From Falsirhodobacter halotolerans (GTDB lineage Bacteria; Pseudomonadota; Alphaproteobacteria; Rhodobacterales; Rhodobacteraceae): 64,000 bases of DNA. The position numbers and the translations under genes were made by a program. Within the stretch, counting starts at the first letter, position 1. Each line of letters begins with the position of its first letter. The stretch spans positions 724,501 to 788,500 of the forward strand of contig NZ_JALJAZ010000001.1 of NCBI RefSeq assembly GCF_022899245.1. Reading direction: 5' to 3'. This document shows, in pieces, positions 46,094-46,803 of the stretch. The notes under the pieces are model-generated. The model did no database searches and was not told the origin of the DNA. It saw nothing but the letters and a program-made list of their open reading frames with translations.

Positions 46094-46803
46094 ACTGCCG
46101 GGACGACCTGCGCGTGGCCGCGATGCTGCTGACCCGCCTGCCGGTGGGGCGGGTCGCGCGGACGGTGCCGATGGGCGCGACGGGCTGGGCCTGGCCGCTG
46201 GTCGGGGCGGGGGTGGGCGCGGCTCAGGCCCTTGCCCTGTGGGCGGGGGGGGCGCTTGGCCTGCCGCCGCTGGCCGCCGCCGTGATCGCGGTGGCCGTGG
46301 GGCTGGGCGTGACGGGCGCGCTGCATGAGGACGGGCTGGCCGATCTGGCCGACGGCGTGGGCGGCGGGGCGACCCCGGCGCGCAAGCTGGAGATCATGCG
46401 CGACAGCCGTCTGGGCACCTTCGGCGCGGCGGCGCTGTGTCTGGCGCTGATCTTGCGGGTGGTGTGTTTCGCGGCGCTGATCGCCGTGCCATGGGTTCTG
46501 GTGGCGGCGGGGGCGGCCTCGCGCGGGCTGCTGCCATTGCTGCAATGGCAGCAGCCCGCGGCGCGGCCGGGCTTGGGGGCGCGCGCCGCCGAGGGGGGGA
46601 CGGCGGCGATCTGCCTGATCGCGCTGGGCCTTGGGACGGTGGCGCTGATCCCGGTGGGGGGGGTGCTGCCGCTGATCGCCGCGCAGGCCGGGGTGGCGGC
46701 CCTTGCGCACCGACAGATCGGCGGGATCAACGGGGACGTTCTGGGGGCCGCGCAGGTGGTGGGGGAGGCCGCGATTCTGCTGGCGGTCCTGTCAGCGCTT
46801 TAA
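46090..46803 (+). CDS. cobS: adenosylcobinamide-GDP ribazoletransferase (cobalamin synthase)
   Basis: Inner-membrane enzyme of 237 residues (CobV in P. denitrificans naming) joining alpha-ribazole and adenosylcobinamide-[11 protein letters not shown] is at the N terminus, [16 protein letters not shown] is the family active-site motif and [15 protein letters not shown] the C-terminal one. Codons 145-157 are written as a perfect 39-bp palindrome encoding [13 protein letters not shown], a strongly unusual DNA feature in an otherwise ordinary gene. Confidence 0.94.
46522..46560. repeat. 39-bp perfect palindrome inside cobS
   Basis: Two 19-base arms, CGCGGGCTGCTGCCATTGC (46522-46540) and its exact reverse complement (46542-46560), around a single central T. 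It is aligned with 13 codons of cobS. As RNA it would make a very stable hairpin; as DNA it could extrude a cruciform. Confidence 0.97.

Follow-up and report, generated by a model that had tools for sequence, protein, structure and literature searches.

A perfect 39-base palindrome in the cobS gene of Falsirhodobacter halotolerans, probably left by a short template switch

The palindrome and the gene that carries it

Within a 64,000-nucleotide stretch of the Falsirhodobacter halotolerans genome (positions 724,501 to 788,500 of contig NZ_JALJAZ010000001.1), referred to below as the window, lies a cobS gene whose coding sequence contains a long and perfect inverted repeat. The gene encodes adenosylcobinamide-GDP ribazoletransferase and overlaps by 4 bases the preceding open reading frame (45104-46093), which we take to be cobT; the frame at 44514-45107 is presumably cobU. 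The features discussed here are the following:

46090-46803, plus strand: cobS, adenosylcobinamide-GDP ribazoletransferase, 237 amino acids, intact frame (from the open reading frame list and the Pfam CobS match)
46522-46540, plus strand: left arm of the palindrome, codons 145-150 and the first base of codon 151, encoding R G L L P L, probable source copy
46541, plus strand: central base, a single T
46542-46560, plus strand: right arm of the palindrome, last base of codon 151 and codons 152-157, encoding Q W Q Q P A, probable rewritten copy

Re-checking the sequence confirmed that 46522-46560 is a perfect 39-base palindrome in which all 19 positions of the arms are complementary around one central base, so that the preliminary description of this DNA was exact in both coordinates and sequence. 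The palindrome starts 432 bases into cobS, spans codons 145-157 and ends abruptly, with pairing ceasing exactly at the ends of the arms on both sides. It is centred on the second base of codon 151 and the arms are in codon register with one another, as had also been pointed out, although this alone would happen by chance in one case in three.

The protein is recognisably a member of its family. It matches the Pfam CobS model at 146.7 bits (E 1.4e-42), and six NCBIfam cobS models also match, all under their curated cut-offs (103.6 against 110 for TIGR00317). A search for a CobS structure found no PDB sequence match at E values up to 0.1. The only Rfam matches in the window at gathering scores lie elsewhere, on the minus strand: a cobalamin riboswitch (39208-39398) and a TPP riboswitch (17142-17246), both well above those scores.

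Inverted repeats in the genome sample

To place the palindrome in context, a count was made of perfect inverted repeats whose arms lie 0-10 bases apart, in a genome sample consisting of the window and 20 further stretches of 20 kb, or 464,000 of the 3,075,853 bases of the genome. Sixteen repeats with arms of at least 11 bases were found. Arms of 19, 15 and 13 bases occur once each, those of 12 bases seven times and those of 11 bases six times. The cobS palindrome is the longest close perfect inverted repeat in the 464 kb sampled. The second longest, with 15-base arms and a 9-base spacer, lies at 19075-19113 of one of the other stretches (L119). Judged by eye, nine of the 15 other repeats have an A-run at the start and a T-run at the end and are terminator-like. 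In 475,553 bases around cobS at 112 relative loci (six of them duplicating another in the gene itself), no arm is longer than 14.

The same sample was simulated five times with a third-order Markov model, for a total of 2.32 Mb, and this produced 22 repeats with arms of at least 11 bases, the longest being 15. Up to 7 pairs, a fraction of 0.27-0.29 of cases survives each added pair, and extrapolation from the 28,599 cases with at least 4 pairs gives about 1.7e-4 arms of 19 bases per sample, or about 1e-3 per genome. Beyond 7 pairs, the observed tail falls off less steeply (0.35-0.55 per pair, in counts that re-include the cobS palindrome at wider spacers) and the value of about 1e-3 is therefore to be read as a simple-chance figure. 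Measured against simple models of this kind, the earlier statement that the match is far beyond chance holds. The palindrome is real and non-random.

The 39-mer was found at one place in the genome only, allowing up to 3 mismatches, and the same is true of its 33-base core; this was the genome search that the preliminary description had proposed, and it turned up no second copy. When a single arm is used as the query, six places besides the two arms are found at 3 mismatches, compared with 2 for a reversed-pattern control. Three of the six share one sequence, and one of these three (1501-1519 of stretch L138) appears by eye to lie within a 23S rRNA gene; these arm-like matches are probably coincidence. 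Four plasmid records match part of 46380-46700, and the four matches listed end at or before 46468, none reaching the palindrome. Viral contigs contain no exact match to the 33-base core with either A or T in the centre, and a virus-borne palindrome was set aside on this basis.

Comparison with CobS of relatives

Relatives were collected by three routes. A search of the genus found a cobS match in four of seven genomes, that of F. halotolerans included; a search of the family found a match in 217 of 248 sampled genomes, again including its own, from which the 29 best-scoring relative loci were taken; and from a search of genome contigs the best 80 of at least 415 confirmed cobS loci were used. 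Of the 115 loci aligned, three were the gene's own and six repeated another's coding DNA, and their removal left 106 distinct relatives. The three genus genomes lacking a cobS match (G001, G002 and G005) also lack a match to the adjacent gene at 45104-46093, and the B12 segment is therefore patchy within the genus.

Codons 140-157 are ungapped in every one of the 106 relatives. As there is no gap over codons 145-157, bases must have been replaced here rather than inserted. At the homologous 39 bases, the relatives pair at a mean of 5.4 of the 19 positions, the best at 10. Other stretches of 39 bases in these genes, taken in codon alignment, give a mean of 5.2 (standard deviation 2.0, maximum 14). 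As a group, the 106 relatives thus show no excess of symmetry, which was part of what the preliminary description had named as refuting its reading. The closest cobS among the matches listed, at locus L003, has 61% protein identity, groups with the F. halotolerans gene (local support 0.988) in a tree built from selected rows of the alignment, and pairs at 8 of 19 positions. In another relative (L104), the first 14 bases of the left arm are identical to those of F. halotolerans whilst the right side is different. Among the lineages seen, the alignment shows the symmetry to be peculiar to this one and, as it appears, derived rather than ancestral.

Which arm has changed can be approached through the residues that each encodes. 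Those of the left arm are ordinary for CobS: R145 is found in 106 of 106 relatives, P149 in 65 and L148 in 45, and the hydropathy of the arm is mid-range, with 62 of the 106 relatives as low or lower. In the right arm, P156 is common (94 of 106) but W153 is found in 16 relatives only, A157 in 12, Q152 in seven, Q154 in two and Q155 in none. The relatives are mostly hydrophobic where the F. halotolerans protein has Q-W-Q-Q: the mean hydropathy of residues 152-155 is -2.85, whereas the 106 relatives have a median of 2.27 and none falls below -1.12, and three glutamines are found at these four positions, compared with at most one in any relative. Both of these measures were picked after the alignment had been seen. 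The right-arm residues stand out as unusual in a comparison with cobS genes that are no more than 61% identical in protein. The preliminary description had considered the CobS protein normal in appearance, and this is borne out for its frame and family membership but not for the right arm, whose residues are unusual for CobS.

Two other measures proved to be weak tests of the right arm. By log-odds, residues 152-157 form only the 37th-lowest of 217 six-residue segments, 36 scoring lower, whilst the segment 150-155 is the 11th lowest; segments starting at 167-172 score lower than 152-157, with the minimum for starts at 169-171. Codon identity is likewise unexceptional: of 205 codons, 39 score no higher than codon 155 and 48 no higher than codon 154. 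At the level of bases, the left arm matches the relatives better than the right in 68 of 106 cases and worse in 23, a comparison in which the invariant Arg145 favours the left. By log-odds and by codon identity, other parts of the protein diverge as much as the right arm or more, so that the proposed direction of copying rests mainly on hydropathy and the glutamine count.

Two further peculiarities of the protein lie downstream. The least CobS-like six-residue segments start at residues 169 and 170, within residues 169-175 (46594-46614), and their low log-odds may merely reflect the alignment, which is gapped in some relatives around a nearby variable loop. At 46569-46570, between P160 and G161 and nine bases past the right arm, the protein is without one residue, which is Asp in 82 of the 106 relatives.

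Origin of the palindrome

How might such a structure have arisen? One view is that it does not exist in the cell at all, the true right arm differing from that reported because of a fold-back artefact of assembly or library preparation. Fold-back chimeras do generate inverted repeats, and the sequence rests on a single assembly. The genome has three contigs and 100% completeness, however, and a chimera with one junction would not come back into the gene, whereas here the gene resumes in register with the conserved P156, A158, R159 and G161 in place. As the symmetry is bounded at 19 bases on both sides and these conserved residues remain, an artefact fits poorly and we regard it as unlikely. 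That the arms became complementary by coincidence, through separate point substitutions, is decidedly improbable: taken singly, the inner CCATTG/CAATGG and the outer CGCGGG/CCCGCG might be nothing out of the ordinary, and relatives reach 10 of 19 pairs at the site and 14 elsewhere in their genes, but the expectation is about 1e-3 per genome and the unusual Q-W-Q-Q is confined to one arm. Descent from a small palindromic mobile element, either REP-like or of the in-frame type known from Rickettsia, would account for the size and symmetry, which resemble those of REP units (20-40 bp, as given in the part of PMC3733652 consulted). An element of this kind would be expected in multiple copies and as an insertion, whereas the palindrome has a single place in the genome at up to 3 mismatches, its 33-base core has no exact copy in viral contigs and no extra codons are present relative to 106 of 106 homologues. 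The suggestion of an element remnant, made in the preliminary description, is contradicted by the single copy and the ungapped alignment, and we consider it extremely improbable.

The functional readings suggested at the same time have gained no support, the relatives being without excess symmetry. The first of these is that selection has kept an RNA hairpin in the cobS mRNA to adjust its translation, its stability or the expression of the operon. Folding does give -74.4 kcal/mol (z -4.1) for a 101-base RNA segment and a z of -8.2 for the DNA strand of 39 bases, but this great stability, as RNA or DNA, is that of any 19-base perfect stem. Set against it are the pairing in the 106 relatives (mean 5.4 of 19, with no excess over the control), a position 432 bases inside the gene, the lack of any Rfam match to the palindrome at gathering scores when the whole window was scanned, and a consensus scan of 44400-47000 that found neither terminator-like nor sigma-70 promoter-like sites (shuffled sequences average 1.1 terminator-like sites). 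A conserved RNA structure was set aside because the relatives are without the symmetry and Rfam has no match at the site, and a selected hairpin is in our view distinctly unlikely. A role in the cell as a cruciform, or as the site at which a dimeric protein binds, would be in keeping with the perfect dyad symmetry but not with a single genomic location, inside a gene and not common to relatives; we consider it extremely improbable.

The palindrome is instead probably the footprint of a short template switch, or quasipalindrome correction, that took place in cobS in this lineage. A template switch in vivo was not among the four options of the preliminary description and is the best cause we can offer. 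In the scheme that we favour, the ancestral cobS would have contained an imperfect inverted repeat with its outer, CGCGGG/CCCGCG-like, and inner, CCATTG/CAATGG-like, parts probably already matching; the outer part corresponds to the bases for R145-G146 and P156-A157, which could have been complementary beforehand. During replication the strand would have folded back, allowing the polymerase to copy the left arm in place of the right across the mismatched middle before returning to its own template. A few bases would have been replaced in one step, most likely around the CAG CAG of codons 154-155, which stand opposite CTG CTG: CTG read in reverse gives CAG, and Leu-type positions would become Gln. 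The outcome would be perfectly complementary arms, with frame, length, the conserved Pro156 and Ala158-Arg159 all kept. No function need be invoked, and the palindrome presumably persists through tolerance of the changed residues by CobS. We infer from the gene as it stands today what the ancestor looked like, which way the copying went and that the change came about in one event; several smaller events are possible instead.

What was found agrees with what such a switch should leave behind: an inverted repeat with a short spacer and a length beyond chance (19 of 19 pairs, spacer 1, longest of 16 in 464 kb), replacement in register without insertion (0 of 106 relatives gapped) and derived symmetry (5.4 against 5.2 of 19, with 8 of 19 in the sister L003). 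It also has precedents, so far as the sections consulted of the papers cited here describe them. Quasipalindrome template-switch mutations are described in E. coli, including the thyA hotspot and lacZ reporters (PMC7202029). As proposed for cobS, an imperfect repeat in a bacterial coding gene there becomes perfect, or more perfect, through copying within the nascent strand; the difference is that in E. coli the mutation was scored directly, whereas cobS is known from the after state alone. Template-switch events are also reported in coding genes of Saccharomyces cerevisiae (PMC8604942): in REG2, a single inferred event extended a 5-bp arm to a perfect one of 16 bp and brought five replacements, L208Q being one of them. 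Further cases named there are rII of phage T4 and the E. coli genes rpsL and thyA. The yeast examples share with cobS the in-frame homogenisation of arms and the clustered residue changes, including Leu to Gln in REG2, but their tabulated arms are of 7-16 bp and a strain phylogeny was at hand, compared with arms of 19 bp and a 1-base spacer in cobS. That template switching can create RNA hairpins is argued in the part of PMC8794818 consulted. Perfect inverted repeats within translated coding sequence are likewise found in the mitochondria of Nematomorpha, with 110 repeats of at least 15 bp and arms of up to 142 bp in four genomes, for which template switching was proposed as one possible mechanism (PMC6649704). 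Those repeats are many and both of their arms encode conserved residues, whereas cobS has a single repeat with a right arm that is mostly not conserved. More generally, inverted repeats in protein-coding regions have, in the portions of the literature consulted, been variously termed generally normal, over-represented or genus-dependent, with Jannaschia among the genera in which they are strongly suppressed.

A palindrome formed by template switching might since have been recruited. It could act as a species-specific in-gene hairpin that slows ribosomes within cobS, or template switching might recur there and maintain its perfection, making it a mutation hotspot that toggles CobS residues. We think recruitment of either kind doubtful; a mutational footprint of an already known kind is most likely. 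As such, cobS would illustrate cleanly, from nature and in a gene of bacterial metabolism, how several neighbouring residues could be altered together by one slip in copying. The perfect hairpin that results might pass for a regulatory element or for the product of positive selection, and long palindromes within genes need a mutational explanation ahead of a functional one.
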